Below are positions 2,072-31,765 of a DNA stretch of 32,397 nt, piece by piece. Numbering within the stretch: the first letter of the stretch is position 1; each line of letters begins with the position of its first letter. A program made the translations under genes and the position numbers. Source of the stretch: a virus; the IMG/VR virus record IMGVR_UViG_3300024262_000146, positions 1 through 32,397 of that record; one strand, written 5' to 3'. The notes beneath the pieces were generated by a model. That model worked only from the letters and a program-made list of their open reading frames with translations. It made no database searches and had not been told where the DNA came from.

Positions 2072-2476
2072 CTAATAATGATTATTTGCATTATGAAATA
2101 TAATTGCTTGTCTTGGTGTTCCGTAAACTGCTTTTATATATTTGATTGTGCAATCTATTTGAGTATTTTTATCGGTTGTCTTTTCGCACCCTACCAGTTT
2201 CCAAGTTGAGTTTAAAAATTGTCCGTAACCGAACGCAGTTGAAATTGGATTTTGTGCTAGGTTATACCAGCTACTTTCTCTTTGAATTAAATCATCAAAG
2301 TGTTTCCATTCTTCTACACTCCATTCTTGTAATACTTTATCGTATGCGTACTCTTTCTCTTCTGTAATGTGTTCTGGGTATATTTTTATTATCTCTACTG
2401 TTGGAGCATCAGCTTGTGCTGTTTTCCAAAGCAATAAAAATAAAATTATTATTATGAATATTATTATTCGTTTTAT
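2072..2476 (-). CDS. secreted lytic transglycosylase-like protein; non-canonical start (ATA at 2474-2476)
   Basis: The mature part reads like the small SLT/APF-type lytic transglycosylase fold. It has an RESSW catalytic-Glu motif, QNPISTAFGYGQF, a Cys pair and CTIKYIKAVYGTPRQAI with a final HNANNHY. It would cut glycan strands of peptidoglycan outside the membrane. Upstream in the same frame, codons 1-24 encode a textbook signal peptide: KR, then about 15 residues of Ile, Leu and Phe, then WKTAQADA with AxA cleavage. This frame has no ATG, GTG or TTG before the hydrophobic core. The fitting first codon is ATA at 2474-2476. Further up the same frame is ATG GAC TAA (2486-2494), two codons closed by a stop. 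A TTG at 2432-2434 would give a 120-residue protein with a destroyed signal. Either a rare ATA start, a nonsense mutation or a sequence error is involved. Confidence 0.65.
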   Translation of the reverse strand: MKRIIIFIIIILFLLLWKTAQADAPTVEIIKIYPEHITEEKEYAYDKVLQEWSVEEWKHFDDLIQRESSWYNLAQNPISTAFGYGQFLNSTWKLVGCEKTTDKNTQIDCTIKYIKAVYGTPRQAIIFHNANNHY

Positions 2477-2818
2477 ATTGGTGATTTAGTCCATTACCAG
2501 ATGTGCAAAGCACTGTCGGTAAATTTTAATAAATTTCTAAGCAGACCCGACAGTATTTCACACACCTTTCTCGTTTCTCATTACAAGAATAGCCGACTAG
2601 AAAATTCTTGTTTTTGCTGTGCTGCATAAAAGAACAATCAGATGTGCAAGTGGGGAGTTAAGTGCCGAGTTTCACGACCTAGCAGTCATTTTAATTGGGA
2701 CCAATATTTCAGGTTGAAAGCCAACAAAATCTGTCTATCATATAAAACTTATTCCCCCATCTGCACACCTTCTATAAATAATTATACTACGATTTCGTCA
2801 GCGAAACAGAGTTTTCCA
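2477..2818 (-). other. 342-nt non-coding gap with promoter-like element and inverted repeats
   Basis: This is the only gap above 300 nt in the window. It contains GTAGTATAAT at 2781-2790 facing left, then several pairable segments on the minus strand. TGTGCA-GATGGGGGA near 2749-2763 matches TCCCC-ACTTGCACA near 2643-2657. CAAGAAT/ATTCTTG pair (2604-2610 with 2584-2590). ACTGTCGG/CCGACAGT pair around a 27-nt loop (about 2511-2554). GTGC-TTT-GCAC lies near 2502-2512. The 11-mer TTGCACATCTG occurs twice (about 2499-2509 and 2640-2650). No convincing ORF is present on the minus strand. A structured leader or a small non-coding RNA fits best. Confidence 0.5.
2781..2790 (-). promoter_or_regulatory. 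promoter candidate GTAGTATAAT upstream of the structured gap
   Basis: This is a perfect TATAAT (2781-2786) preceded by GTAG. It is the same 10-mer found before the genes at 15744 and 23256. The -35 region at 16-18 bp is poor. A small TTTCG/CGAAA hairpin overlaps the spacer (about 2792-2806). It would drive a transcript with a leader of about 300 nt ahead of the transglycosylase gene. Confidence 0.45.
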
Positions 2819-3853
2819 CTATGAGTACCTTAAATTTAATTCTTCGAGTGTTTTTGAACCAACTCGTTTTCCTTTAACAATCAATAGTTCCCATAAAGAT
2901 GCAACTTGATAATGTACTTGAAATTTATCAACAGCTTTTTGTGTGATAGTTCCATAGTAACCAGTTGAGTCTGTTGTAACTGGAAAGAATCCCTCTAACT
3001 TTAAAATGTCTTGTAAGATTTTAATATCTTTACTTCGTTGTCCCATTTCCATAACACTTGTAAAAGTGTGTTTTATTTTTTTAGGGAGTACAGAATTATC
3101 TCTATCAAAGAAAACTCCTGCACTATAAATTCTCGTCAAAAATGACTCGTCTAGGTATCTTACGGAGTATTTATTGAAATGAGCACTATCTTCGATTCTA
3201 AGGTACTTTTTGCCCTTAATAAGCCCATAATCTACTGCTGTTACAGCGTGTCTGATGTAACATTTATTTATATCTAGATTAGGATACTTGATTGTAGGAT
3301 ATTCTCCGTACTCATCAACTTCTGCGTATAAGAAAAGCATAACTGGTCTTCCTGCTTCTATATGACTTGCTAGTACATCAATGTTTGGGTTTTGAATATA
3401 GGCGTAGGCTTCGATTCCATATTCCAATGAAATATTAACATCATCAACGCTCCATTTCTTTGCTTCTTTTTCCATTTGAGAATCGTTAATCATTTGCGAT
3501 TTGATTCTTTGTTCAGTTGTTGTTCCGTACTTTTTAACAATGTCAAAAACATCATACATAGCCATTCCTGCATTGGGTTTGTTTATTCTCTTTGCGTAGA
3601 TTGGTGAAGCTGAAAATACAACTGTTTTGTTTTCTTCTAGTTTATTTAAAACTTCTAGCATTTTAGAAGCTGTTTGTGCTACACAAGAGTTTGATGATTT
3701 TTGATTTCGTTCTGTGTATGACTTCCACTTTTTCTTTTCTTTCCAATCAACAAAATTAGTAGAAGCTAATTCAATATCTTGATAGTCTTTTTTCTTTTGA
3801 CTATTAGGGCGATTGTCGAGTATTGCTCCTTGATATTTATTTAATTTTGCCAT
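2819..3853 (-). CDS. endolysin candidate: papain-like (C1) cysteine peptidase plus peptidoglycan-binding domain
   Basis: This 344-residue protein has two domains. Residues about 45-250 look like a C1 papain-type peptidase: Q51 and C57 have the papain Q19-C25 spacing, H202 lies in RHAVTAVDYG, and D222 in RIEDSAHF occupies the Asn position. Residues about 268-341 resemble a PG_binding_1 domain (GQRSKDIKILQDIL, TGYYGTITQKAVDKFQ, VGSKTLEEL). The domain pair and the place next to a two-helix holin candidate suggest a lysin that cleaves peptide bonds in the cell wall or a surface protein. There is no signal peptide, so export would depend on the holin. It starts two bases after the holin gene's TAA, indicating co-translation. 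Asp in place of Asn in the triad is unusual but tolerated in some C1 relatives. The peptidase class is a family-level inference; the substrate is unknown. Confidence 0.75.
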   Translation of the reverse strand: MAKLNKYQGAILDNRPNSQKKKDYQDIELASTNFVDWKEKKKWKSYTERNQKSSNSCVAQTASKMLEVLNKLEENKTVVFSASPIYAKRINKPNAGMAMYDVFDIVKKYGTTTEQRIKSQMINDSQMEKEAKKWSVDDVNISLEYGIEAYAYIQNPNIDVLASHIEAGRPVMLFLYAEVDEYGEYPTIKYPNLDINKCYIRHAVTAVDYGLIKGKKYLRIEDSAHFNKYSVRYLDESFLTRIYSAGVFFDRDNSVLPKKIKHTFTSVMEMGQRSKDIKILQDILKLEGFFPVTTDSTGYYGTITQKAVDKFQVHYQVASLWELLIVKGKRVGSKTLEELNLRYS

Positions 3854-3854
3854 A

Positions 3855-4091
3855 TTACATTTCTAGTTCTTCTAGTCGTTCTCTTTCTTTTATTTTATTT
3901 GTTATATGCTTTGAAACTTCTCCAAAGAATAATCCCAAAACAACAGCAAAGCCAACTGGCAATCCTAATTCTGTAATTGAGTTTGTAAGTAGTGTCAAGA
4001 GTCCTGCAAGAAACATCATTGCATTTCTCCAGTAAAAAGATTTGAAACGTGGACTTAATAAAACTTGATTTATTTTTTCTAATGTTTTCAT
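3855..4091 (-). CDS. holin-like membrane protein (78 aa)
   Basis: The 78 residues contain two predicted membrane helices, about 24-40 (AMMFLAGLLTLLT) and 44-57 (LPVGFAVVLGLFFG). They are separated by a short turn and followed by a highly charged tail (KHITNKIKERERLEELEM). Size, topology and position directly before the peptidase-lysin match class II phage holins, which permeabilise the inner membrane at lysis. A perfect TATAAT ends six bases before the ATG, so it may begin a leaderless lysis transcript. There is no Shine-Dalgarno sequence. Function is inferred from topology and context, not from a recognised family. Confidence 0.7.
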   Translation of the reverse strand: MKTLEKINQVLLSPRFKSFYWRNAMMFLAGLLTLLTNSITELGLPVGFAVVLGLFFGEVSKHITNKIKERERLEELEM

Positions 4092-4265: not shown

Positions 4266-4517
4266 TCATTTGCTTACTTTAAATATCCACTGCTTTTTCC
4301 ATCTGTGAATAAACAAATAGATAATAACTAGATTGTTATCTTCAAAAGGATTCCAAGTTTTAAAGTACACTACTCCATATCTTCTTCGTCGGTATTCTTT
4401 CCAGTCTTCTTCTATTCTTGTTAAGACTTTATAGTCAGGTACATACTTCCAAGTTCCCCAATGAAATGGATTTCTGAACTGGTCGTCTATGGTTAAGTTA
4501 ATTAGCTTGTCTTGCAT
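4266..4517 (-). CDS. hypothetical basic aromatic-rich protein (83 aa)
   Basis: This 83-residue protein is rich in Trp, Tyr and Arg. It contains FHWGTWKYVPDYKVLTRIEE, EYRRRRYG and NNLVIIYLFIHRWKKQW. The C-terminal Leu/Ile/Phe stretch is too short and too charged at its edge to be a firm membrane helix. Family unknown. Its start overlaps the end of the small lipoprotein-like gene by 20 nt, and it is followed at once by the 52-residue gene. Membership in the lysis region is the only functional hint. Confidence 0.6.
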   Translation of the reverse strand: MQDKLINLTIDDQFRNPFHWGTWKYVPDYKVLTRIEEDWKEYRRRRYGVVYFKTWNPFEDNNLVIIYLFIHRWKKQWIFKVSK

Positions 4518-4644
4518 TATATTGATAAGGTGTTTTATTCACACGCCAGTATTCACACGCTCCTAAAAACATACAGCTATAAATCATCGCTAAAAGAAAA
4601 ATAAGGAAGCCAAGTAAGTAAAAGTTTGTTTGTGTTAATCTCAT
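4498..4644 (-). CDS. small signal-anchored or lipoprotein-like protein (48 aa)
   Basis: ATG 4642-4644 to TAA 4498-4500 gives 48 residues with a hydrophobic segment at about 9-29 (YLLGFLIFLLAMIYSCMFLG) ending in LGAC. That fits a lipobox with Cys30 as the acylated residue; YSC at 22-24 is an alternative. The tail EYWRVNKTPYQYNARQAN is short and soluble. The ATG overlaps the TGA of the preceding coiled-coil membrane gene (ATGA type), so the two are probably co-translated. A lysis accessory such as an outer spanin-like lipoprotein is possible, but the partner gene has its membrane helix at the wrong end for a classic inner spanin. Confidence 0.6.
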   Translation of the reverse strand: MRLTQTNFYLLGFLIFLLAMIYSCMFLGACEYWRVNKTPYQYNARQAN

Positions 4645-5030
4645 AATATAAATTTAATTAAATCTTTGTTTACCAATCCAACAGAAGCTAGTGTAAATAA
4701 TACCAGTAAAACTAAAGTATAGATAACTCTCTTGTTGAAAACTTCTTTTGCCAACTCATCCCGTTCAATCTTTTTAGATTGTTCTAGAATTAAATTATCT
4801 TTAGCTTTATCAGATTCTTGTTTGTAATAACTAATTATTGTTGAGTGTCCTGAAATTATAGTTAGAGCATTTGCTATATCTTTTTTTGCTGCAACTAATT
4901 CTAACTCTAAGTTAGTGACTCTACCATTAGTCTTTTTACCAAGCTCTTTTGTTTCTTCTCCTGTAGATTCAATACTGTTTAGTTTAGATAGTATCAGTTC
5001 GTGTATTTCTTTGTGCTCTTCCTTTGCCAT
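4641..5030 (-). CDS. coiled-coil protein with C-terminal membrane helix (129 aa), XhlA-like topology
   Basis: The first 90 residues are charged and helical (KEIHELILSKLNSIE, RVTNLELELVAAKKDIANAL), typical of a coiled coil. A membrane helix follows at about 101-119 (VIYTLVLLVLFTLASVGLV) with a short tail. This is the topology of XhlA/hemolysin-type phage lysis accessories and some antiholins. I have no sequence-level match. It lies at the head of the lysis genes, just after the fiber-associated small genes, and couples to the next small lipoprotein-like gene. Its role in holin control or membrane disruption is inference from topology. Confidence 0.65.
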   Translation of the reverse strand: MAKEEHKEIHELILSKLNSIESTGEETKELGKKTNGRVTNLELELVAAKKDIANALTIISGHSTIISYYKQESDKAKDNLILEQSKKIERDELAKEVFNKRVIYTLVLLVLFTLASVGLVNKDLIKFIL

Positions 5031-5464: not shown

Positions 5465-8365
5465 TTAAATTACTTGATAAGTGTATGTGTAAGTAATTGT
5501 ATCTAATGCCCCGTTTGTTTCGTAATAATCCATCTCGGCTCTATCGTTTGTTGCATCAGCATAGATAGCAACTCCGTGTCCTGCACCAACATTCGGCGCA
5601 GTATGACCTGCACCTCCACATTGGTAAGCTGTGGTAAAGGCTGAAGCAATAGGAAGTGAGATACCGATAGTTGTTTGTGTGTTGTTTGCTGTTGGTGTTA
5701 CGTCTATTTGTCCTGAAACTGTTACTGTATTTCCAACTCGCATATAAGTAGCTTGTCGTGCTGTTGATGAAGATACATTTGATACTCCTGTAAGTGTTGG
5801 TGTGTATGTTCCTGAAGCAAGTCCTGTATCGTTTACAATTGAATCACATTGAAGTGAAGAGGTTATGTTTACAGCATCACTGAAAGTAAATCCTGCTCCA
5901 CTTCCAACTGCATCAAATGTCACTCCTCCTGTTGAACTTACTGTCGTAGAGAAGTAGTTAGACACATCGTAACCAGTTCTTACTTGCTCTGTTGTAGAAA
6001 TTGTATGGAATCTTGCAGACGGTGAAGCAACTCCTACACCAACATTACCAGAAGAATCTATTGAGATTCTATCTGCTCCATTAGCCCTCAACACCATTGA
6101 AGTACCTGCTGAAGTCACAATTCCAGCAGTATTTCCTGATGTGTTTGTTGTACCCAACAGACTTAAACTTCCGCTACCGAAGATATTTCCTGCTGTTGCG
6201 TTAATGTTTGAACTTGCTCCTGTTGTGATATTGAAGACTGAACTATTACCTACTGAGAAATTGAAAGTAGTCGAAGAAGCTCCTGATAGGAAAAAATTAT
6301 TCGTACCATCAATTCCAATACTTCCAACAACTGTACTTCCTGCATAGTAGTAGTGTCCTAAAGTACCGACCCCGCTCCCTTTACCCCAATTAACAACCTG
6401 ACTTGCATTAGTATCATAAATAGACGGTAATAATTCCAGCTCGGTATAGTTTTGTGCAACTTTAACTGAAAATCTGTCATCCCCACCACCTCTGTTATCT
6501 CTTAAATCTAGTGCATTTCCATAAGTGTTGGAAGCTTTTAATATATTCAAATATTTGTTTGTAGAATCCCAAGTAAGACCAGAATCCCCTGTAAGCACCC
6601 CTCCTGCACTACCATAACCTACCTGTGTCGCTGCTAAAGAAACAGATGAGAGTTTTGTGTTAAGTTGTGTTTGGATTGCACTTGTAACACCTTTGACATA
6701 AGAAAGTTCTGTAAGACTTGGATATGTAGCTACTGCACCAGATACGATATTCTTTGAAGCGTCTGTAATTAGTATTTCAGAAGCTGTAAGACCTGACATA
6801 CTTAAAACTCCTGCATCTGTAACTTTAAACTTATCTATTCCAGCTACAATTAAATCTCCTGAACCACCATCACCAATATTTAATTTAGTTCCTGAGCCTG
6901 TATGTGTTATGTCTATCGCAGTTCCTGAACCTGAACCATTAGCTACTAACGCACCATTGTTTCCACTTGGAGAAAGCGTAATTGTGTTATCAGTTGTCGC
7001 ACCTCTGCCTGTTACAGTGTCTAAGGTATCGGCTTCTGCTTGTAATGCACTATCTGCTAAATCAAGTGAAGCGTTTACAGATGCATCTAATTTAGATTCG
7101 TCTATTGAACTTGCAACAATTGAAGCCGTTAGAGCTCGTGCTGTGACAGTCAAATCAATCTCTGCTGTGTCTGTAACTGTGTCGATTGTGTTTACCTCTG
7201 CTCCAGTTTCTATTCCGTCAAGTTTAGTTTTATCACCATCAACAAAAGCTCCCTCTGAAAGAATATTTTGTTTTCCTGATATATCTTGGTCACCTGTGTT
7301 AGTTCCTGATGTATTTCCAATAACAGTAAGTTGTGCATCTGTGACATATCTTTTGTTTGAACTGTCTGCAATATCGGCTGTTGTTGCATCTGCTCCTGCT
7401 GTTACTAATCCTTTTGCATCGTAAGTTATTTTAGTTTTAGTAGCTCCTGTAATAGAAGCGTTTTCATCTACTTTTCCGTCTAATGCTGTTTGTAAGTCAG
7501 TTTGATTTGAGAGTGTGCCTGTAATATCTCCCCATGCTGGTGCTAAAGCTGTTGCTGCAACAATAGGGTTAGCTGGGTCTGTTGCATCTACTGTAATACC
7601 TGTACCAGCTACGACAGATTGTACTCCACCACTACCCCCTGAACCTAGATTATACTTACCATTAGTTTGAGTAAGTCCTGTTAGATTTACATCATCTAAT
7701 TCTGTAAGAGAAGTAGTTTTAGAAGAAGGTTTCCATACGGGAGCATTTTTAATTTCTGTGTATTCTATTCCAGCTTCTAATAGTTTATCTTTAACCTCTT
7801 TTGAAGTAATAGACTTTGCTTTAATTTCTTTTAGCTTTGGGATTAAAGGTTTAATGATTTTCTCTATTTCTGCTTTGCTAGGTGTTTTTCCATCGTTATA
7901 ATCAACACCTTTAATTGGTGTGTAGCCATCAACTCCGTCTTTACCATCTTCTCCCTTGATAGGAGCTGGAATCATAGGCTTTATAAGCCCTACAAGCTCC
8001 ATAGGCGATGGTTTATCTCCTTTATCACCCTTTTCCCCTTTATCTCCTTTTACTTTAAGTGCTTCTAGTTGTTCATCTGTAAAATCTTCATATTTAAAGT
8101 CTTTTCCTTTGATTGTTACAAATTCTGCACCAATCAGTTCTACTTTTTGAACTTCTGGTTTAGGTTCTGCTGCTTTCTCTATAAGAATATCAACAGAACG
8201 GTTAAGCTCATTTAACTCAGCGTTTGTTTCCATAATCCCCTGTACTTGAACATCGCTTGATTCTGCAATATCTGCTAACTTGTCGTTAGTTTCCATTGTT
8301 GCATCTATTAAAATGTCGTTTGAGTTATCTTCGGGCATATTATTTTGTGGTTGAATTGGTGGCAT
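5465..8365 (-). CDS. tail fiber protein with collagen-like segment (966 aa)
   Basis: The order of parts is as follows. Residues about 1-75 are an acidic helical N-terminus that probably attaches to the virion. A collagen-like Gly-x-y stretch follows at about 107-118 (GDKGEKGDKGDK), and another at 138-148 (GEDGKDGVDGY). Then comes a long Thr/Ser/Gly/Ala-rich repetitive beta region (about 210-840). The C-terminal domain of about 115 residues (SGTYTPTLTG ... VGNTVTVSGQ ... TYTYQVI) is a type I recall at the end of many phage fibers. The shaft contains fiber-repeat phrases such as GNTSGTNTGDQDISGKQN and SSGNVGVG. The role would be receptor binding and trimeric shaft formation. It is immediately downstream of the large virion protein. 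Repetitive low-complexity content makes boundaries approximate. Confidence 0.85.
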   Translation of the reverse strand: MPPIQPQNNMPEDNSNDILIDATMETNDKLADIAESSDVQVQGIMETNAELNELNRSVDILIEKAAEPKPEVQKVELIGAEFVTIKGKDFKYEDFTDEQLEALKVKGDKGEKGDKGDKPSPMELVGLIKPMIPAPIKGEDGKDGVDGYTPIKGVDYNDGKTPSKAEIEKIIKPLIPKLKEIKAKSITSKEVKDKLLEAGIEYTEIKNAPVWKPSSKTTSLTELDDVNLTGLTQTNGKYNLGSGGSGGVQSVVAGTGITVDATDPANPIVAATALAPAWGDITGTLSNQTDLQTALDGKVDENASITGATKTKITYDAKGLVTAGADATTADIADSSNKRYVTDAQLTVIGNTSGTNTGDQDISGKQNILSEGAFVDGDKTKLDGIETGAEVNTIDTVTDTAEIDLTVTARALTASIVASSIDESKLDASVNASLDLADSALQAEADTLDTVTGRGATTDNTITLSPSGNNGALVANGSGSGTAIDITHTGSGTKLNIGDGGSGDLIVAGIDKFKVTDAGVLSMSGLTASEILITDASKNIVSGAVATYPSLTELSYVKGVTSAIQTQLNTKLSSVSLAATQVGYGSAGGVLTGDSGLTWDSTNKYLNILKASNTYGNALDLRDNRGGGDDRFSVKVAQNYTELELLPSIYDTNASQVVNWGKGSGVGTLGHYYYAGSTVVGSIGIDGTNNFFLSGASSTTFNFSVGNSSVFNITTGASSNINATAGNIFGSGSLSLLGTTNTSGNTAGIVTSAGTSMVLRANGADRISIDSSGNVGVGVASPSARFHTISTTEQVRTGYDVSNYFSTTVSSTGGVTFDAVGSGAGFTFSDAVNITSSLQCDSIVNDTGLASGTYTPTLTGVSNVSSSTARQATYMRVGNTVTVSGQIDVTPTANNTQTTIGISLPIASAFTTAYQCGGAGHTAPNVGAGHGVAIYADATNDRAEMDYYETNGALDTITYTYTYQVI

Positions 8366-8366
8366 A

Positions 8367-11300
8367 TTATTCGTTTGACATTAAAGAAGCTCCTCCTAAT
8401 GCACCTATTATACCAAATGCTTCTATTGGAATATTCTTGTATTCTTTGGTTACAGGCACTTCAAACCAAGACACACCTTGTGCGTCTGTTACTTGTTTTG
8501 CGTTGAAGTTGTTTTTGAGATACTTCTGTAGTTCTTTATCGTAGAACTTGTAGATAGGGTTGTTGGTGTCTACTTTACCTGAGATGTCGAACTCCTCTTT
8601 AGCACTTTGTAATTGTGCTTCTATTTGTCTTTGAACATAGGCATCACTAGGTTGAGTTCCTTTGCTAAATTGAATCTTGCCAGTACGCAAATCTTCTAGT
8701 TGTTGGAATCTATCTTTCGGCACAGCCTTAAACTTCCCATCTCCTAGTACGTCGGTGATTATCCAGTCAGCTTGTCCGACATTTGAATCAAAAATCTCCT
8801 GTCCCACTTTTAGGTCGTTAGGGTTTAGTCCAGTAGGATTTCCATTTCTCACAATTCGCCAGTTATTATTTGTCCCTAACCCCTCTATCTTCATTGCGGT
8901 TTCACCAGTAGGGAATTGTAGTTTAGTCTTACCATCTTTAGATGCTTTTTGTATTTCTTCTCGTACCATACGGAAGTGAGCTGTTGGGTTGTTGTATTGT
9001 TGGAGAGGTTTTTTCTCATTTATTATTTTTGTAGCATTTTCAACATCTAATTTAGCCTCTGGTAGATTGCTCCCTTTTGCCAAAGTTAATAATTGTTCTG
9101 CATCGGCTGTTTCCCTCTCCAAATTACCCTTCTGAAACAAATCAGACTGTACTTCAATAACTCTACGAGTTTTGTTATCTGCCATATCTTCTATACGAGT
9201 GTGACCGAAGTATTTGTCAGAAACATTATCAAAATGTGTTGAACCTGCCGAAGTTTTAATAGGGCTTTCATAAATATTCTCTTTATAATTCTTAACCTTT
9301 CCACGAAGCTCGTTAGGCAACGCAATACTTTCATATTTTGCATTAAATGACCCTTCTTCAACTGTTTTTGGGTAGTATTTGCCATTTAAGGTAGAGTCTT
9401 CAAACACAGCACTATTTTTAGCTTTCAAAGGTAACAACTCTGCTTCTACTTCTTTACCAAACTCTGCAACATTTATTCTATCTCCTTTACCCTCTAACTT
9501 TGCTCTAATTAAATCTTTCTCTACTTGTTTTAAGTCTGGTGAGTTAGTTAAGTCTGAAATGAATTGTTTTGATACAGTAGTTTTACCCTCTAGTTTCTTT
9601 AGAAGTTTAGTAGTAATTGGAGCTGGTTTATACCCTTCTTCTACTTTCCCCATGAATGTTTCTTTGGTATTCTTAGGTAATGATACAGATTCGTTTACTT
9701 TTGGTTTTGGGAGTTGTGGGGTTGATTTGTTTTCAGACAATATTTTTGGTAGCTGGGATTTTGCTTCATTAGTAAAAATAACAGGTACATCTTTCACTCC
9801 AAGTTCTGAATATGCGGTTGCCCTATGGTTTCCGTCTAACACTTTTAGCTTTCCATCTTCCATACCAACTAGTATGGGTGGTCTTTCTCCTTTCTCTATT
9901 TTTTTAAGCCAATAATCAGAGGTAAGTTTTCCTGTTGTTTGTTTTGATAAATCTCTAGTGTCTAAACCGATTTTGTTTCTTAACAGTCCACTATCTATTT
10001 TAAGAGTTTCAATCTGCTTATTTTTGGGTAGAGTATCTAAAATGTGACCTGAGTCCGTTACATTCATGCCTAATTCTTCCGCACTTTTATACCTATTTAT
10101 TTTTTGTCCTAAGTTATCTCCTTTCCCTTGTGGTAGTTTTATAAATCCACCTTGTTTATTAGGGGTATTTTTTATTTTGTCTGAAAATTGTTGTAGTTTT
10201 GACTTTGTGGTGATGTCTGCTAACTTTATATCTCCATAATTTTTCTCTATAAACTTTTTAGAAATCATCAGAGGGTTTTCTCCATTTTTAAAAGTAACCC
10301 TAAAGAAATCTCCCTCATCTGCAATTTTATTAAGACCTGACCCATTTTTCTTAAGTGCCCTATCTATTGATGCTTTTATTTCAGTTATACCTTTTTCTTT
10401 GGTGTTGATAAGTCCTGTTGACTTTTGAGGTAAAGTGTTAGATTGTTGGGTTATGACATTTGTATTAGGAGTCGTTGGAATATTAGCACTTGGTTGGGTA
10501 CTTAATCGGGTTGTTCCTGAGGGTATTACCGAAGGGCTAGGCAACGCTGTTGCTTGGCTTTTTGGTATTGACCGTTGATTAAGTTTTTCTGCTGATTGAA
10601 ACATCTTATTAACAGCTCTGTTAGGGCTATTTAAGTATTTGTAAAACTCTTTAATACCTCTTGTTACTCCACCTCTTGCTAGTTGTGCAGGGTTAAATGT
10701 AATAAGACCTATGACAATATCTCCTCCAGTTAGAATATCTGTGTAGTCTAATAACCCTTTATTGTTTTTTCTTGCATCTCTTAAAGCAGCTTTAATAATA
10801 TCTTTTTCAACAGCCTTTAAAGAAGCGTACTGATTTTTAATAGTTTGGTATTGTTGCCCTGTAAGCCCTGTAATCCCCTCATCAAGTTGCAGACGAAACT
10901 GGTTTGCAACCATAGCATCAATACTTGCTTTTGATGCAGACTCGTAAGTTGGATTTCTATAAAATGCTTTTAAAGACTCATTATAGTTTTGTATGACATC
11001 TTGCACAATCTCAGCATCTAGTTCTCTATATAAAAGTCTTTCTTGCAGTTCTTGTGCGTACTTACCTGCTTGTGGGTTAGTGATTTGCAACGCTTCGTTA
11101 TTGATAACAGTATCTAATTCTTTTGCAATAGGATTAGTTTTTATTTTAAGACCTTGTTGCCCAGCTTGTTTTGCTAGTGAGTCGTAGTCTTTAAATACTT
11201 GTTTCTTTGTTTGCTCTAGTGCATCTGAAAGTTCTGCAAGTGTCTTTGGATTTCTTCCAATAGTTTCTTCCCCAATATCATCAACAAATTTAAGGTTTCC

Positions 11301-12626
11301 TTTATTTCTATCAATAACTTGTGCAGCTTGAACAATATCACCCTCAAACTTTGTAGCTTGGGTTGGTGTCATATTCATATTTATACGAGGCTTAACTCCT
11401 TTTTGGAAGTTATCTACTACAACTGATTCTAGTTTAGCTGTTGTAGGTTCAAAGGCTTTTGATGTGATGTCTTTTCCTTTTATTGCCACCTTCTTTGTAG
11501 TATCAATAACAGGTCTAGCTGTTGCAGAAATTGTGTCAGTTGTTACCCCAGTACCTCGCACCTTACTTGGTGCGTAAATAATACTTGGGATTAGTAATGG
11601 GTCTTCAATTCCAACTCTTGCTACTTCAGAAGCACCTTGCCCTAAAGAAACACCAACACCTTTTGAAACAGAGTTTTCTCCCATTACATTTTGTTGTAGA
11701 TTGTTATAAATAGCTTCTCCCACTCCTTTATAAATATCAGCTCCTTTTGCAAGGGTTGAACCTGTACCACTTAGTGTATTTCCTATCGCTGAACTTCGAA
11801 CTTTACTATCTTGTGGTACTGCTAATCCTCGTCTTCTTAATTCTGCTTCTGCTTCTTTACCTGCTCTATTAGCCTTGTTTACTGCTCGGTTACTAGAAAA
11901 AATACTTCCTAACGCACTTACACCTTTTGAAATATTAGAACCAATGTTTAATGGAGCATCTATATCTAATGGGTTAAATGGAGCTATAACTTCTCTTGTT
12001 AGTTTTGCTGCTGAACTTGGTAAGTTACCTGCTGTTCTAGCTAAGTTTGGAATAATTGCTTCTGCTCCTCCCATATCAGCTTTATAGCTAGTTTCTCCTT
12101 TAAGTGTACCCATACTGAATAGTCCTACCCCTTTGTCTGGTACTACAGGTGTTTCTTGTGCAGTTGTTTGTTGTTGAGTTGTACTTTGTTCAACTGTTGG
12201 TTCTTCCAAAGACTTTAATGCTTTTGCTTTTGATAGAACATCACCAACATATTGTGGTGTGTTATATGACACTCCAATCTTTTGATTGTAGCCAATATTA
12301 GTTTTCCAAGTACCATCTAATGCTTTTTGTTCTCCTGCATTCCAAGCAGCTGCGATTTGAGCTGGTGTCCAACCTGAATCTTTCCAAGATTTTATCTTTT
12401 TGTAAGCTACTTGGTTTTGATTTGCCTTATTCATTGGAGCATTTTCATCTCCTAAAACATCTTTTGCGTAACCTTTCCAAGTAGCATCTTGAAATTGAAA
12501 AGCCCCCGTAGAAGTCGCATTATCTCCTACTGCATTATAGTTTCCTCCACTTTCCTTTTCTCTTATTGCTTTAAATAATCGGTAGGCTTGTGGGTCTAAT
12601 TGTTCTCCGTTTATTGTTTTTGGCAT
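8367..12626 (-). CDS. very large internal virion / polyvalent protein with transglycosylase domain (1419 aa)
   Basis: Residues about 10-135 form a murein transglycosylase-like domain with E25 in EKESGGNY, STGAFQFQDATW, and IAAAWNAG. Residues about 860-955 resemble a ParB/Srx-type domain, with ERPPILVG and VLDGNHRATAYSELG (929-943). Residues about 1110-1250 contain YKENIYESPI, FGHTRIEDM and VIEVQSD, followed by helices and KTKLQFPTG. I recall that arrangement from large polyvalent proteins of phages and mobile elements. Between them are Ala/Gly-rich helical regions (190-350) and a low-complexity Pro/Thr/Ser linker (690-735). It probably enters the cell with the DNA, opens the wall and carries effector domains. 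It lies between an ejection-type protein and the fiber. Domain names beyond the transglycosylase are by memory of motifs. Confidence 0.8.
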   Translation of the reverse strand: MPKTINGEQLDPQAYRLFKAIREKESGGNYNAVGDNATSTGAFQFQDATWKGYAKDVLGDENAPMNKANQNQVAYKKIKSWKDSGWTPAQIAAAWNAGEQKALDGTWKTNIGYNQKIGVSYNTPQYVGDVLSKAKALKSLEEPTVEQSTTQQQTTAQETPVVPDKGVGLFSMGTLKGETSYKADMGGAEAIIPNLARTAGNLPSSAAKLTREVIAPFNPLDIDAPLNIGSNISKGVSALGSIFSSNRAVNKANRAGKEAEAELRRRGLAVPQDSKVRSSAIGNTLSGTGSTLAKGADIYKGVGEAIYNNLQQNVMGENSVSKGVGVSLGQGASEVARVGIEDPLLIPSIIYAPSKVRGTGVTTDTISATARPVIDTTKKVAIKGKDITSKAFEPTTAKLESVVVDNFQKGVKPRINMNMTPTQATKFEGDIVQAAQVIDRNKGNLKFVDDIGEETIGRNPKTLAELSDALEQTKKQVFKDYDSLAKQAGQQGLKIKTNPIAKELDTVINNEALQITNPQAGKYAQELQERLLYRELDAEIVQDVIQNYNESLKAFYRNPTYESASKASIDAMVANQFRLQLDEGITGLTGQQYQTIKNQYASLKAVEKDIIKAALRDARKNNKGLLDYTDILTGGDIVIGLITFNPAQLARGGVTRGIKEFYKYLNSPNRAVNKMFQSAEKLNQRSIPKSQATALPSPSVIPSGTTRLSTQPSANIPTTPNTNVITQQSNTLPQKSTGLINTKEKGITEIKASIDRALKKNGSGLNKIADEGDFFRVTFKNGENPLMISKKFIEKNYGDIKLADITTKSKLQQFSDKIKNTPNKQGGFIKLPQGKGDNLGQKINRYKSAEELGMNVTDSGHILDTLPKNKQIETLKIDSGLLRNKIGLDTRDLSKQTTGKLTSDYWLKKIEKGERPPILVGMEDGKLKVLDGNHRATAYSELGVKDVPVIFTNEAKSQLPKILSENKSTPQLPKPKVNESVSLPKNTKETFMGKVEEGYKPAPITTKLLKKLEGKTTVSKQFISDLTNSPDLKQVEKDLIRAKLEGKGDRINVAEFGKEVEAELLPLKAKNSAVFEDSTLNGKYYPKTVEEGSFNAKYESIALPNELRGKVKNYKENIYESPIKTSAGSTHFDNVSDKYFGHTRIEDMADNKTRRVIEVQSDLFQKGNLERETADAEQLLTLAKGSNLPEAKLDVENATKIINEKKPLQQYNNPTAHFRMVREEIQKASKDGKTKLQFPTGETAMKIEGLGTNNNWRIVRNGNPTGLNPNDLKVGQEIFDSNVGQADWIITDVLGDGKFKAVPKDRFQQLEDLRTGKIQFSKGTQPSDAYVQRQIEAQLQSAKEEFDISGKVDTNNPIYKFYDKELQKYLKNNFNAKQVTDAQGVSWFEVPVTKEYKNIPIEAFGIIGALGGASLMSNE

Positions 12627-18335: not shown

Positions 18336-19541
18336 CTATGCTGCGATTTTTACGTTTAGGAATTGTTGTGCTCCATCGTTGAACGTTTTGAACCCATACA
18401 ATGCGTCTGCAAGTACGTTAGTTGCTCTCTGTTTTGGTTCATCTCTCATTTCCATATCTACTTGGTCTTGGATAACTACGTCGATTGCTCCTTTCTTTCC
18501 AAAGTAACAAGAGATGTAATTTGATGTCCAAGCATCTGTCGCGTCTGTCAAAGTTTCTGCTACTGTCAAACGACCAGCTCCTTTTCCTACGATTGTAAGA
18601 GTGTTTGCTGTGTCATCGTTAGTTGCAACGATTCTAGCGTTTGTAAGGATAGCTCGGTTAGCTGCTGATACTTCAAAGTATCCAGTTGCTGAGTCTTGTC
18701 CTGTTGCTGAGCCGTTGATTGCGTTAGCAATAATTGCTCGTGTAGCATCTGCTGAACCTGCAACATCAAATTCTCCTGCTACTGCTGGTGTTGCTTTTGC
18801 TGTGAATGTAACCCCTTCAACTGAGATAGTATCGTCTGCTGTTACGTTAGTTGCTAGTGAAAGCACTGCTGTTCCAGTTAGATTTTCTGATACATACACT
18901 TCTGCTGTTGATACTGTTCCTGTGTAACCGTTTGCGTATGTAGAACCTGCTAGGTCAATATTCTTTCCTAATAGGTATTCTGTCATAGAAGCTGCTGCGT
19001 ATGAGTCAACTACAAAACATAGGTTTGTTAATGTTTGGTTGTTAGCTCGTAGCTTTGCTGGTGCTCGTGATACAAGTTGTGGAACTGTTGTAGAAGATAG
19101 TGTGATAGCTACTCCTGATGAAGTTGTAGCTGTAAGGTCTCCAGTATCGAATGTACTGAAAGCGTTTACAGTTTCTCCAAGAATATCTGCATCAATAAAT
19201 TCTGCTAGTTTGTGTGCAACTTTAGCTCCTAGAACTGTTGCAGGTGAAAGTGGTCCAGCTTGTACTTTCTCATATACTGAGATAGCAAATGTTGTTCCAT
19301 ACTTTTGGTCAACTGCTAGTAATTCTTCAGAGTCTGTAATTGAGTCAACTGTTCGGTCTGAACCAATAGTTACTGAACGAACTAGTACGTTTGCGATATC
19401 GTACTTGATTCTTGTAACTGATTCTCCGTATCGAAGACCACTTCTTAATGTTGTGTTTGCTACTTTAAGTCCAACTAGGACTTTTTGGAAAATGTCTTGA
19501 TATGAATCTGAGAACACTTCCTTGAAATTGTCTAAAGCCAT
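18336..19541 (-). CDS. major capsid protein (401 aa)
   Basis: Length, position after the scaffold gene, and the HK97-like start (MALDNFKEVFSDSYQDIF ... GLRYGESVTRIKYDIANV) support the major coat protein. The P-domain/A-domain pattern includes VAHKLAEFIDADIL, LTNLCFVVDSYAAAS and a C-terminal EPKQRATNVLADALYGFKTF. Residues about 215-335 contain a separate Ala/Thr/Gly-rich beta insert (LSLATNVTADDTISVEGVTF, ATRAIIANAINGSATG), as found in some P22-like coat proteins. About 60 copies per face group would form the head. A promoter candidate with a 7-nt leader precedes the gene, and a double hairpin follows it, giving it an independent expression unit. Confidence 0.85.
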   Translation of the reverse strand: MALDNFKEVFSDSYQDIFQKVLVGLKVANTTLRSGLRYGESVTRIKYDIANVLVRSVTIGSDRTVDSITDSEELLAVDQKYGTTFAISVYEKVQAGPLSPATVLGAKVAHKLAEFIDADILGETVNAFSTFDTGDLTATTSSGVAITLSSTTVPQLVSRAPAKLRANNQTLTNLCFVVDSYAAASMTEYLLGKNIDLAGSTYANGYTGTVSTAEVYVSENLTGTAVLSLATNVTADDTISVEGVTFTAKATPAVAGEFDVAGSADATRAIIANAINGSATGQDSATGYFEVSAANRAILTNARIVATNDDTANTLTIVGKGAGRLTVAETLTDATDAWTSNYISCYFGKKGAIDVVIQDQVDMEMRDEPKQRATNVLADALYGFKTFNDGAQQFLNVKIAA

Positions 19542-21125: not shown

Positions 21126-23102
21126 TTATATTGATTGGTTAAACTGTTCTAATTCTTGTACTGGTAATAGATTTGGATTAGCTTCTGGGTTAGGTGTAAC
21201 TTCGTTTAAATCCACTGGCTTTGCTCCCATTTGTTGTGCCTGTTGCATCTGTTGATTTACTGCATAGCTTACCATATTCTGTTGAACGATTGGTTGCAAA
21301 ATATCAATGTATGCAAATATCATTTGGAATGTTTCTGCATCTAGGAACTCTCTTTGGTTCTTTGCGTAGTCTAGTAGTTTTTGTACATAAGCCACGTTAG
21401 CCATAAGGTTAGGTGTTGGCATTTTTCCATTGATGATAGTTTCTAAATCTCTATCGGCTTCTGACATTAAGTCGATTGAACCGTAACTATCTTTATCTAG
21501 TAGTTGTTTAATATCATCATCTGTTAGTCCTGCATCGTGTGCTGATAGTTCAAATAGTTTCTTTTGGTTAATCTCTGGGTTCATAACATTAGCATTGTAG
21601 AAAGCCATTCTGTTTTTCTTTTGAAGTGATGAGATATTCATTTCTGCATTACCAGCTTCTACTTTGATAAAGAAGTCATTTTTAGCAGGAATAATATCTT
21701 TTCGAGTGATTTCTTCTGTTTCAACTCCATCTGGTCCAAGTAAATCAACTGCAATCTTTTTAGTAAGGTGTTCTTTAATACCCTCATAGTGAAGTTGTGC
21801 AAATCTTTTATATCCGTGTGAATATGACCTGTTTAAAAGCCCAAAAAGGTCTGCTGTTGCCATTTGATTACCCTCATAGATAGCAACTCGTTCTTCTTCT
21901 GCAACTCCCATAGAGCTTCCTGTAACACCTGATGATTTTTCTTGGATAGCTTCTAGTATTTTATACACTTGAATAGGAGTATTGATACTAGGAACATCAA
22001 CAATTCTCATTGCCTTGTTTACATCTACACCTGTCTTGAATCTAATAAGTCCGTCTTTTCGGTACTTCAACTCATTTAAGTCTTCAACTGCTGATACATC
22101 AACTCCTTTTTGTGGTTTGTTGATTTGCTCTGCGTTATCAAGCATTTGATTGATTGATACTGATTGAGCCATAAACACTTCTCTAACATAATCACAATAA
22201 GATGGTGTCCAGAACTCTGTAAGGTCAGGAAATGAAGCCCAAGTCCAAAAAGGGTACATATTACTTTCAAACAAGTCTTTAAGTTTCTCTACTCTGATTG
22301 CATAACCTCCGTCAGTCATCAACAAGTAGTATCTTTCTCCCTCATAAGTAGTAAACCATTCCCAGAACTTATACTTGTCAGGGTTGTCTAGTTGCTTTTG
22401 TTCAATCATATTCCCAACAGCAATCTCTCTGTTTTGCTTATTGGTTTCTTCCTGTGTCATCTCTGTTGAGTTTCCAACACCTTGAATAAGACTATCTACT
22501 TCTGTCTTGATGTAGATTCCACTTTTCTTACCCTCTTTAAGGTCTTCTTTACTCTTAATAATTCCATATCTTCCCAAGTACCACGCTTGTTCTATGTCTA
22601 ATCCTCCACAAGACGGGTCAATAAGAAAGTCATATACATCTACGTTTTCTAGTTTTGATTTGTAACCTCCAACTGATTCTGCGTGGTAAGCATAAATAGC
22701 CCGACCATACATAACTGCTTGTTTCTTTCCAAGCAAGTCTTTCATATCCCAATCGTCATTGTCTGCATCTAAATCACGAATAGCATTTGCTCTTAATGCT
22801 CGTTTATAGTCTGAGTTCTTTTTCTTTCCGTATTTAAATATAAGTGGGTTATCTATCTTTGAAAGGATTGTATTAACAAAACCTTGCATCTTTCCTAATT
22901 CCACGTTAGCTCTTGAATCTCCTTTTCCTTGTGGTGAGAATACAACATTACCGTATTGGTCTAGAATACGATTCTTTAAACCATAGTACATATTCTCGTT
23001 CTTAAACCAAGATTGTGTACGACTTTGTTTATAATTTCGTGCATAAGTTATCTCATCTAGTGCTTGTGCCCGAATTTTGTCACGGGTAACTTTATTTATC
23101 AT
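21126..23102 (-). CDS. portal protein (658 aa)
   Basis: This 658-residue protein has the pattern of a P22-type portal. It has a charged N-terminal helix with KNENMYYGLKNRIL, then GKGDSRANVELGKMQGFVNT, a clip/wing region with YHAESVGGYKSKLENVDVYD and FLIDPSCGG, and a stem-like part with SVSINQMLDNAEQINKPQ. A Gln-rich helical C-terminus (VNQQMQQAQQMGA) follows, comparable to a barrel. It would form the dodecameric DNA channel at one head vertex and bind the terminase. It follows TerL, from which it is separated by an inserted HNH gene and a 54-residue gene that overlaps its start by 11 nt. Confidence 0.85.
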   Translation of the reverse strand: MINKVTRDKIRAQALDEITYARNYKQSRTQSWFKNENMYYGLKNRILDQYGNVVFSPQGKGDSRANVELGKMQGFVNTILSKIDNPLIFKYGKKKNSDYKRALRANAIRDLDADNDDWDMKDLLGKKQAVMYGRAIYAYHAESVGGYKSKLENVDVYDFLIDPSCGGLDIEQAWYLGRYGIIKSKEDLKEGKKSGIYIKTEVDSLIQGVGNSTEMTQEETNKQNREIAVGNMIEQKQLDNPDKYKFWEWFTTYEGERYYLLMTDGGYAIRVEKLKDLFESNMYPFWTWASFPDLTEFWTPSYCDYVREVFMAQSVSINQMLDNAEQINKPQKGVDVSAVEDLNELKYRKDGLIRFKTGVDVNKAMRIVDVPSINTPIQVYKILEAIQEKSSGVTGSSMGVAEEERVAIYEGNQMATADLFGLLNRSYSHGYKRFAQLHYEGIKEHLTKKIAVDLLGPDGVETEEITRKDIIPAKNDFFIKVEAGNAEMNISSLQKKNRMAFYNANVMNPEINQKKLFELSAHDAGLTDDDIKQLLDKDSYGSIDLMSEADRDLETIINGKMPTPNLMANVAYVQKLLDYAKNQREFLDAETFQMIFAYIDILQPIVQQNMVSYAVNQQMQQAQQMGAKPVDLNEVTPNPEANPNLLPVQELEQFNQSI

Positions 23103-30270: not shown

Positions 30271-30426
30271 TTATTCTTGTGTTTCTATCATCAGTCTTGT
30301 TACGGTCTTTTCAATTTTCTTTACATTTTCTTCTGGAATTTTTCTTTCCCTAATCCAACGGTAAGCAGTCTGCAAAGAAATACCTTGCTGTTGTGCGTAT
30401 TCATATACTGGTATTAGTTTAGTCAT
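30271..30426 (-). CDS. small helix-turn-helix protein (51 aa)
   Basis: MTKLIPVYEYAQQQGISLQT then AYRWIRERKIPEENVKKIEK shows a helix-turn-helix of the excisionase/MerR-N-terminal type. The start ATG 30424-30426 overlaps the end of the nuclease gene by 8 nt. An upstream in-frame ATG (30504) is rejected because it lies deep in that gene and adds an unrelated 26-residue stretch. It may regulate early genes or bind a specific DNA site. It has no dimerisation domain of its own. Confidence 0.65.
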   Translation of the reverse strand: MTKLIPVYEYAQQQGISLQTAYRWIRERKIPEENVKKIEKTVTRLMIETQE

Positions 30427-30871
30427 AATCTTCGTCTTTAAAATCTGGTATATCAATGTTAATAAATGTTCCCACCTCCCATTGTTCTCTCCTTTCCCCC
30501 ACAATATCCTTAATCAAGCTTTTGTAGAAAGACTTTTTGTAAGTATCAAAGAAATCTTTTTCATTTACTCTGATACAAACCCAATTATTTTCGTGCAAAT
30601 ATGTATCTCTGCTTTTATCTTTTAACTTTTGCTTTTTCTCCTTATGGTCTTCTCCATCAACCTCTAAGGCAACTTGTTCTTTGATGAAAGCAAAGTCTAG
30701 GACAAACGCTTCTCCAATCGGGTGCTGTCTTACGAAATCAACACCTTGGACATAACCTATATCTTTTAAAAACTCTAATACTTTTATTTCATTTTTTCCT
30801 GACATTTGGTCTTTCCAAGCCTGTTGATGTACGTGAATTTGAAAGAACCTTCGTCTATTTACCTTTGTCAT
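30419..30871 (-). CDS. DUF559/Vsr-like PD-(D/E)XK endonuclease (150 aa)
   Basis: Residues 56-104 read FVLDFAF...ALEVDGEDHKEK...DTYLHENNWVCIRV. D59, E70 and D72 are placed like the acidic metal ligands of PD-(D/E)XK enzymes of the DUF559 (very-short-patch-repair-like) group. The N-terminus is basic. It would cleave or nick DNA, possibly in mismatch repair, replication or host-DNA breakdown. It has its own sigma70-type promoter with a leader of about 28 nt. It overlaps the HTH gene at its end. Confidence 0.75.
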   Translation of the reverse strand: MTKVNRRRFFQIHVHQQAWKDQMSGKNEIKVLEFLKDIGYVQGVDFVRQHPIGEAFVLDFAFIKEQVALEVDGEDHKEKKQKLKDKSRDTYLHENNWVCIRVNEKDFFDTYKKSFYKSLIKDIVGERREQWEVGTFINIDIPDFKDEDYD

Positions 30872-30944: not shown

Positions 30945-31268
30945 TCAAAATGGTATGTTTGAAATATCATCTAATGGGCTTTCATCAATTCCATCTGTAT
31001 TTACTGATTCGTTTTTATCCTCAAAGATAGTACCTATACCCACATAGTTATTTTCCTCTCCTTTTTCACGCTTTTCTGCAATAAAGTATTTTTCTACTAA
31101 TGTCCAAGTATCACCCTCTTTAATAACTCGTGGTTCTTTCTTTTCAATCAATACAAGTTCTGCGTTTACTTCGTTTACTTGTGTTCCATCTCGTTTAGTA
31201 AAAGAGTTTTTCTTTAATCTGTTTTTGTCTAACTTTGAAACGTCAATCTTTAAGTTTATGTTGCTCAT
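30945..31268 (-). CDS. single-stranded DNA-binding-like protein (107 aa)
   Basis: This 107-residue protein has a beta-rich core (INLKIDVSKLDKNRL, GTQVNEVNAELVLIEKKEP, TWTLVEKYFIAEKRE). The acidic end DGIDESPLDDISNIPF resembles the DDDIPF interaction tip of bacterial SSB. With the ERF annealing protein directly upstream (one-base overlap), this suggests a phage SSB that protects single strands and hands them to the recombinase. The OB fold itself cannot be proven by eye. Confidence 0.6.
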   Translation of the reverse strand: MSNINLKIDVSKLDKNRLKKNSFTKRDGTQVNEVNAELVLIEKKEPRVIKEGDTWTLVEKYFIAEKREKGEENNYVGIGTIFEDKNESVNTDGIDESPLDDISNIPF

Positions 31269-31765
31269 TATATTTGTTGGTTACCTGCTAATTTTGCCTT
31301 TTTAATTTCTGTAATAATCTTCTTTTGTTCTGCGTTACACTTTTCCCAATCTTCTGGACTTATCTTACCTTCGTTTTGGTAAGTGTTCCTAACTGTTGCC
31401 CAATCTTTAACATTTAGTCCTGTTGTACTTGCACTCTTGCCATCATCATCTTCGGCTTCAAGAGCAAGGAGTGATACAAGTGTATATCTTCGGTAGTATG
31501 TTATTGCACTTCCTAATTTCTGTGGCTCGACGTCTTCAGGTAGTTTAATTGAAGACTTTATTTGGTGCGAGTCGTCTTTTTCGCTAATTATAGTTACAAC
31601 ACTTCCGTCAATAATTGGTTGCGTAATAACTAACCCCTCTTCTTCTAAAAGAGGTTGTAGCTTTTCTAGTAGTTGGTTGATGTCAAAGTATTTGTAATTA
31701 AAACCTTTTGTGTCTTTTGTAAGTTTTCCTATTTTCTTTTGTATATTTTGAATTTTATCTAACAT
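31268..31765 (-). CDS. erf: ERF-family single-strand annealing recombinase (165 aa)
   Basis: The family signature is clear: GFNYKYFDINQLLEKLQPLL, GLVITQP, IKLPEDVEPQKLGSAITYYR, RYTLVSLLALEAEDDDGKSA. ERF (P22 essential recombination function) proteins form rings that anneal complementary single strands, allowing genome circularisation and recombination-dependent replication. The C-terminal 50 residues (about 115-165) are variable and helical, maybe for partner binding. It is coupled with the SSB-like gene. The length of 165 residues is somewhat shorter than P22 Erf. Confidence 0.9.
   Translation of the reverse strand: MLDKIQNIQKKIGKLTKDTKGFNYKYFDINQLLEKLQPLLEEEGLVITQPIIDGSVVTIISEKDDSHQIKSSIKLPEDVEPQKLGSAITYYRRYTLVSLLALEAEDDDGKSASTTGLNVKDWATVRNTYQNEGKISPEDWEKCNAEQKKIITEIKKAKLAGNQQI

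Follow-up and report, generated by a model that had tools for sequence, protein, structure and literature searches.

Endolysins whose catalytic domains belong to the papain superfamily are established, and include the CHAP and NlpC/P60 enzymes and the mycobacteriophage LysA N5 type (PMC3314691, PMC10318531). CHAP and NlpC/P60 domains are Cys-His wall hydrolases that frequently come joined to a wall-binding domain (PMC5146660, PMC10318531), whereas the N5 domain gives an HHpred match to a C39-like peptidase and was assigned by its authors to the papain family (PMC3314691). Here, we describe a viral protein that, like LysA N5, is a predicted phage endolysin with a papain-superfamily catalytic domain and a C-terminal wall-binding region, but whose catalytic domain matches Peptidase_C1. 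It is encoded in a window of 32,397 nucleotides, the whole stretch of DNA that we analyzed. What distinguishes it is the combination of a C1A-type catalytic domain, Asp in place of the catalytic Asn, a fused PG_binding_1 domain, and a holin neighborhood. In the open-licence papers that we searched, we found no description of a phage endolysin joining Peptidase_C1 to PG_binding_1, and the main text of a survey devoted to uncultured-phage endolysins contains neither “papain” nor “Peptidase_C.”

Our preferred reading, to which we assign a probability of roughly 0.7, is that this protein is a holin-released, wall-anchored papain-fold endopeptidase that acts in lysis beside a lysozyme-like enzyme. 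The gene and its parts are as follows (codons in plus-strand coordinates):

2819..3853, minus strand: papain-type cysteine peptidase with a PG-binding domain, 344 aa, proposed endolysin (ORF, Pfam, six homologues)
3104..3754, minus strand: catalytic papain-type domain, residues about 34-250 (Peptidase_C1, profile versus PDB C1A chains, Foldseek)
2822..3058, minus strand: C-terminal PG_binding_1-type domain, residues about 266-344 (PF01471, endolysin PHROGs, PDB endolysin PG-binding domains)
3755..3853, minus strand: N-terminal extension, residues 1-33, with a conserved D.R.......D motif (D13, R15, D23)
3701-3703, 3683-3685, 3248-3250 and 3188-3190: predicted catalytic codons of Q51, C57, H202 and D222, respectively

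An initial annotation had placed the ORF at exactly these coordinates, leaving unsaid that it lies on the minus strand; the frame starts with ATG at 3853. In Pfam, residues 34-223 match Peptidase_C1 (PF00112; E = 2.7e-9, 37.9 bits versus a gathering cut-off of 20.7) and residues 274-316 match PG_binding_1 (PF01471; E = 6.3e-6, above the gathering score), a union of catalytic and wall-binding domains in one protein that is also seen in phage endolysins. The PHROGs matches cover the C-terminal part only and are to endolysin PHROGs, and an NCBIfam search of the protein returned nothing above cut-off, which places the catalytic part outside both collections. The three named residues of the N-terminal extension are invariant in all seven aligned proteins (the window protein and six homologues); AlphaFold2 confidence is low over residues 1-33, and hydropathy analysis detects neither a hydrophobic N-terminus nor an export signal. 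We rejected membership in CHAP or NlpC/P60, for which there is no Pfam match, and in C39, since Peptidase_C39_2 (PF13529) stays below threshold (17.7 bits versus a cut-off of 24, E = 0.0055), a difference from the C39-like LysA N5. A chance ORF is ruled out, as profile, structure, and conservation all concur.

Structure prediction supports a papain-type fold for the catalytic domain over that of another clan. An AlphaFold2 model built from the window protein and five relatives has a mean pLDDT of 69, and a second, seeded on the homologue from contig L017, has a mean of 59; confidence is thus moderate to low, and as both use the same six sequences, the two models are not independent. In the window model, helix 57-74 starts at C57, so that the Cys heads the central helix as in C1A enzymes, and H202 sits, like its papain counterpart, in strand one of the C-terminal sheet. 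The best Foldseek match of this model in the PDB is cathepsin S (E = 1.2e-8), and the matches listed are C1A enzymes (cathepsins S and K, actinidin, chymopapain, xylellain; target-normalized TM about 0.6-0.7); the L017 model likewise matches C1A enzymes (9.1e-7). A profile of the seven sequences searched against PDB chains gives procerain B as the best hit (5.5e-8) and caricain (1e-6), and separately recovers the PG-binding domains of enzymes acting on the cell wall, endolysins among them. The papain-type fold and the PG_binding_1-like C-terminus, both anticipated in the initial annotation, are borne out, the first by models that match cathepsins and plant relatives of papain and not a fold of another clan, the second by the Pfam and profile searches. 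In BFVD, the window model matches A0A6J5MXS7 (“Peptidoglycan binding-like”; 3.6e-13 over 312 alignment columns) and A0A6J5TCZ4 (“Peptidase_C1 domain containing protein”; 1.0e-8). These are two examples of proteins from uncultured phages, compared by fold alone; C1-type proteins of phages, perhaps with PG-binding parts, have therefore already been deposited.

Residues Q51, C57, H202, and D222 stand where they had been reported and follow the C1-peptidase order, in agreement with the Peptidase_C1 match. N50, Q51, C57, and H202 do not vary among the seven aligned proteins, nor does the Ser at position 223, while position 222 is Asp in six proteins, including that of the window, and Asn in the seventh (L011); the replacement of Asn by Asp that had been pointed out is therefore real and widespread among the relatives. 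Of the four predicted catalytic residues, three (Q51, C57, H202) fall among the only 26 columns that are invariant over the seven, and by our own arithmetic the chance that three random residues would all hit such columns is about 4e-4. The motif at position 222 reads NSW, as in papain, in L011, DSW in L017, and DSA in the window, L015, L004, L012, and the phage genome ctPCi537. In this series, D222 lines up with the catalytic Asn of papain, and the Trp two residues past it is gone in most members, being Ala in 5/7. A tree of the seven separates the window, L015, L017, and L011 from ctPCi537, L004, and L012; DSA occurs in both sets and the branches are few and long, so we do not infer a direction of change.

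With C1A peptidases such as papain, the cathepsins, procerain B, and xylellain, the window peptidase shares the fold, the Gln-Cys-His order, and the Gln-Cys spacing, as all seven proteins have Gln and Cys six residues apart and then His. Its full spacings are 6 (Q-C), 145 (C-H), and 20 (H-D), compared with 6, 134, and 16 in papain. It departs from them in the Asp for Asn, in the lost Trp, in a Cys-Val where papain has Cys-Trp, in a short N-terminal extension that is not a recognized propeptide, and in the added PG-binding domain. The Cys-His distance is also far from that of a CHAP example (61 residues, Cys100-His161; PMC5146660). Because we tested for Asn as the third catalytic residue and found Asp222, we do not file the protein as a canonical C1A member but describe it as one that would work like C1A. 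One could read the changes at these sites, Trp to Ala in 5/7 and Asn to Asp in 6/7, as signs of a degenerate, inactive papain-like protein kept for wall binding alone. We regard this as the least probable of the explanations considered, since Gln, Cys, and His are kept down to about 21% pairwise identity and Asp is the third residue in other papain-superfamily families, e.g., C39.

A tblastn search over 50,697 phage records returned one match, in Caudoviricetes sp. ctPCi537 from Manatee Spring (29% identity over 96% of the query), where the homologue (MW202577.1, 288-1337) is annotated “hypothetical protein.” A further five contigs came from scanning IMG/VR (3300020152_000031, 3300020152_000016, 3300002242_001985, 3300025066_000080, and 3300008255_000055). 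The six homologues are 26-45% identical to the window protein, and the two-part layout of papain-type and PG-binding domains is found in 7/7. The L015 homologue scores 25.2 bits for Peptidase_C1, above the 20.7 cut-off, and the other homologues fall below it. Few genes are common to the window and the homologue contigs, which had been fetched by the peptidase gene, and these vary by contig. The ctPCi537 protein resembles that of the window over nearly its full length, has the Q/C/H/D residues and a PG-binding C-terminus, and is encoded next to a small membrane protein with an SLT-like protein nearby; its catalytic domain, however, is more divergent and alone gives no Peptidase_C1 match, and the genome differs from the window except for similarity in the terminase and the capsid region. 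Four loci found by DNA-motif matches (L005, L007, L008, L010) were rejected, as they encode no relative. A plasmid search for the window peptidase gave no match, and two scans of bacterial genomes by short exact peptide motifs, which are weak evidence of absence, found no relatives.

A C1A-type domain with Asp joined to PG_binding_1 is an uncommon form of an otherwise well-known type of wall-cutting enzyme, with a single tblastn match in the 50,697 phage records. Papain-superfamily endolysins as a whole are less exceptional than the initial annotation implied. We offer only tentatively, and consider rather doubtful, the stronger proposal that a C1A-type protease, its third residue changed from Asn to Asp, was recruited against the wall peptides, or else a protein layer, of uncultured hosts and constitutes a distinct endolysin family, with NSW, DSW, and DSA as intermediates among the relatives. 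If the enzyme cuts peptidoglycan, the C1A-type domain would take its place beside CHAP, NlpC/P60, and C39-like domains among the modules that cut the wall; such a lysin might prefer a different bond, and would illustrate how a general protease fold turns into a wall hydrolase. For proteins so far deposited as hypothetical, the analysis provides a function that can be tested.

The gene order around the peptidase bears on its role, and involves three further features:

3855..4091, minus strand: candidate holin, 78 aa, ending 1 nt before the peptidase start (hydropathy)
2072..2434, minus strand: lysozyme/transglycosylase-like ORF with an APF C-terminal-like domain, a candidate for a second wall enzyme (NCBIfam, PHROGs)
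4641..5030, minus strand: 129-aa protein with one C-terminal transmembrane segment (hydropathy)

The lysis-cassette position proposed for the peptidase is supported by profile-confirmed holins beside two homologues, namely a LydA-type holin directly before that of L012/L006 (PF16083, 1.5e-7; phrog_6384, 1.1e-10) and an A118-type holin directly after that of L017 (PF06946, 1.9e-5; phrog_1299, 3.7e-11). In ctPCi537, a 67-aa protein with two transmembrane segments by hydropathy directly follows the homologue. The window's own neighbor had been called a two-helix holin; by hydropathy and by eye, the 78-aa ORF has a clear hydrophobic segment at residues 39-57 and a weaker one before it, but it matches no holin family in Pfam, PHROGs, or NCBIfam, so that the designation is plausible from its position and from the homologous loci. 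No recognizable holin or lysozyme lies beside the homologue in L011, nor is either adjacent to it in L015. The latter contig encodes, upstream of the peptidase gene, a 101-aa protein that looks similar to the window's 129-aa protein, itself a possible accessory membrane protein of the lysis region. Also in L015, an ORF between the tail-fiber-like and peptidase genes (4472-4852) reads by eye like a response-regulator receiver domain.

Downstream of the peptidase gene, the lysozyme-like ORF matches NF052397 in NCBIfam (2.3e-17) and, in PHROGs, phrog_15428 (6.4e-21) and the transglycosylase phrog_12661 (6e-13); hydropathy indicates a hydrophobic, signal-peptide-like N-terminus in a frame that extends to about 2476. 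Lysozyme/transglycosylase (SLT)-like genes also lie near the homologues in ctPCi537 and L004, and in L017 one is seen by eye, without Pfam support. The view of the peptidase as the single likely endolysin accordingly gives way to one in which it is probably one of two wall enzymes.

On the preferred reading, the 78-aa membrane protein, product of the adjacent upstream gene, would permeabilize the cytoplasmic membrane at a late stage of infection, and the papain-fold enzyme, having no export signal, would then escape through it and bind the wall via its C-terminal PG-binding domain. There, the Cys57/His202/Asp222 triad, with Gln51 as the predicted oxyanion-hole residue, would cleave the peptide stem or the cross-bridge at one of its peptide bonds, and the lysozyme-like protein encoded next would cut the glycan strands; the phage would be a tailed phage with a holin-dependent endolysin. 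The data establish the fold family, the conservation of the catalytic residues, the fusion of the two domains, the order of the genes, and the recurrence in other phages, and from these we infer catalysis, a peptidoglycan-peptide substrate, the holin role of the window's neighbor, and the timing. PG_binding_1 is found also in proteins without a cell-lysing role, and C1A enzymes are proteases of ordinary L-peptides. This last point favors an alternative in which the true endolysin would be the lysozyme-like protein (2072-2476), with the papain-type protein as an accessory lysis protease acting on wall-attached, surface-layer, or host proteins. The neighbor's lysozyme/transglycosylase-type domain and signal-peptide-like start are in keeping with this, as is the membership of known papain-superfamily wall hydrolases in other families (PMC10318531). 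In the window, L012, and L017, the peptidase nevertheless abuts a holin, whether candidate or confirmed, and its PG-binding domain, kept in every homologue, suits a wall substrate; we therefore think the alternative unlikely, while giving it more weight than any other rival. That the peptidase is a virion-associated lysin used for entry seems to us highly improbable: its gene does come after a tail-fiber-like region (5465-8365) on the same strand, as it does in ctPCi537, but the window already encodes a large SLT-domain protein in its structural region (8367-12626), and the peptidase gene adjoins that of a membrane protein.

Several minor observations concern the same region. In the lysozyme-like frame (2420-2500, minus strand), the signal-peptide-like start KRIIIFIIIILFLLLWKTAQADA has no ATG, GTG, or TTG directly before it, and upstream the frame reads ATG GAC TAA; a non-standard start codon or a break in the frame may account for this. 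The 339 nt between the peptidase and lysozyme-like ORFs (2480-2818, minus strand) are predicted to fold as RNA far more stably than shuffled versions (z = -3.35, 0/100 shuffles as good), with two long hairpins, have no Rfam match, and contain TTGCACATCTG twice, at 2498 and 2639. In L017 (7208-7509), a terminator-like hairpin seen by eye (GATCCCCATTTAGGGGG followed by a T-run) comes after the holin gene and separates the peptidase and holin from the lysozyme-like gene.

As to the host, the window terminase is < 60% identical to terminases from phages of many hosts, those of Nitratiruptor phages being among the top matches, whereas the lysozyme-like ORF is similar to proteins of actinobacterial phages; as these resemblances disagree, we claim no host, and the unusual host envelope suggested in the initial annotation stays conjectural. 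No tRNA was found in the window. Elsewhere on its minus strand are the large SLT-domain protein mentioned above (8367-12626; 1419 aa, with the SLT domain at its N-terminus and a weak ParB-like stretch around residues 911-970), a DUF559-type nuclease-like protein (30419-30871; 8.1e-11), an ERF-family recombination protein (31268-31765; 4.7e-19), and a portal protein (21126-23102; SU10 portal family in Pfam, 5.5e-19). A 401-aa ORF (18336-19541, minus strand), without a significant family match, resembles proteins of ctPCi537 and of the L017 contig and is probably the capsid protein.
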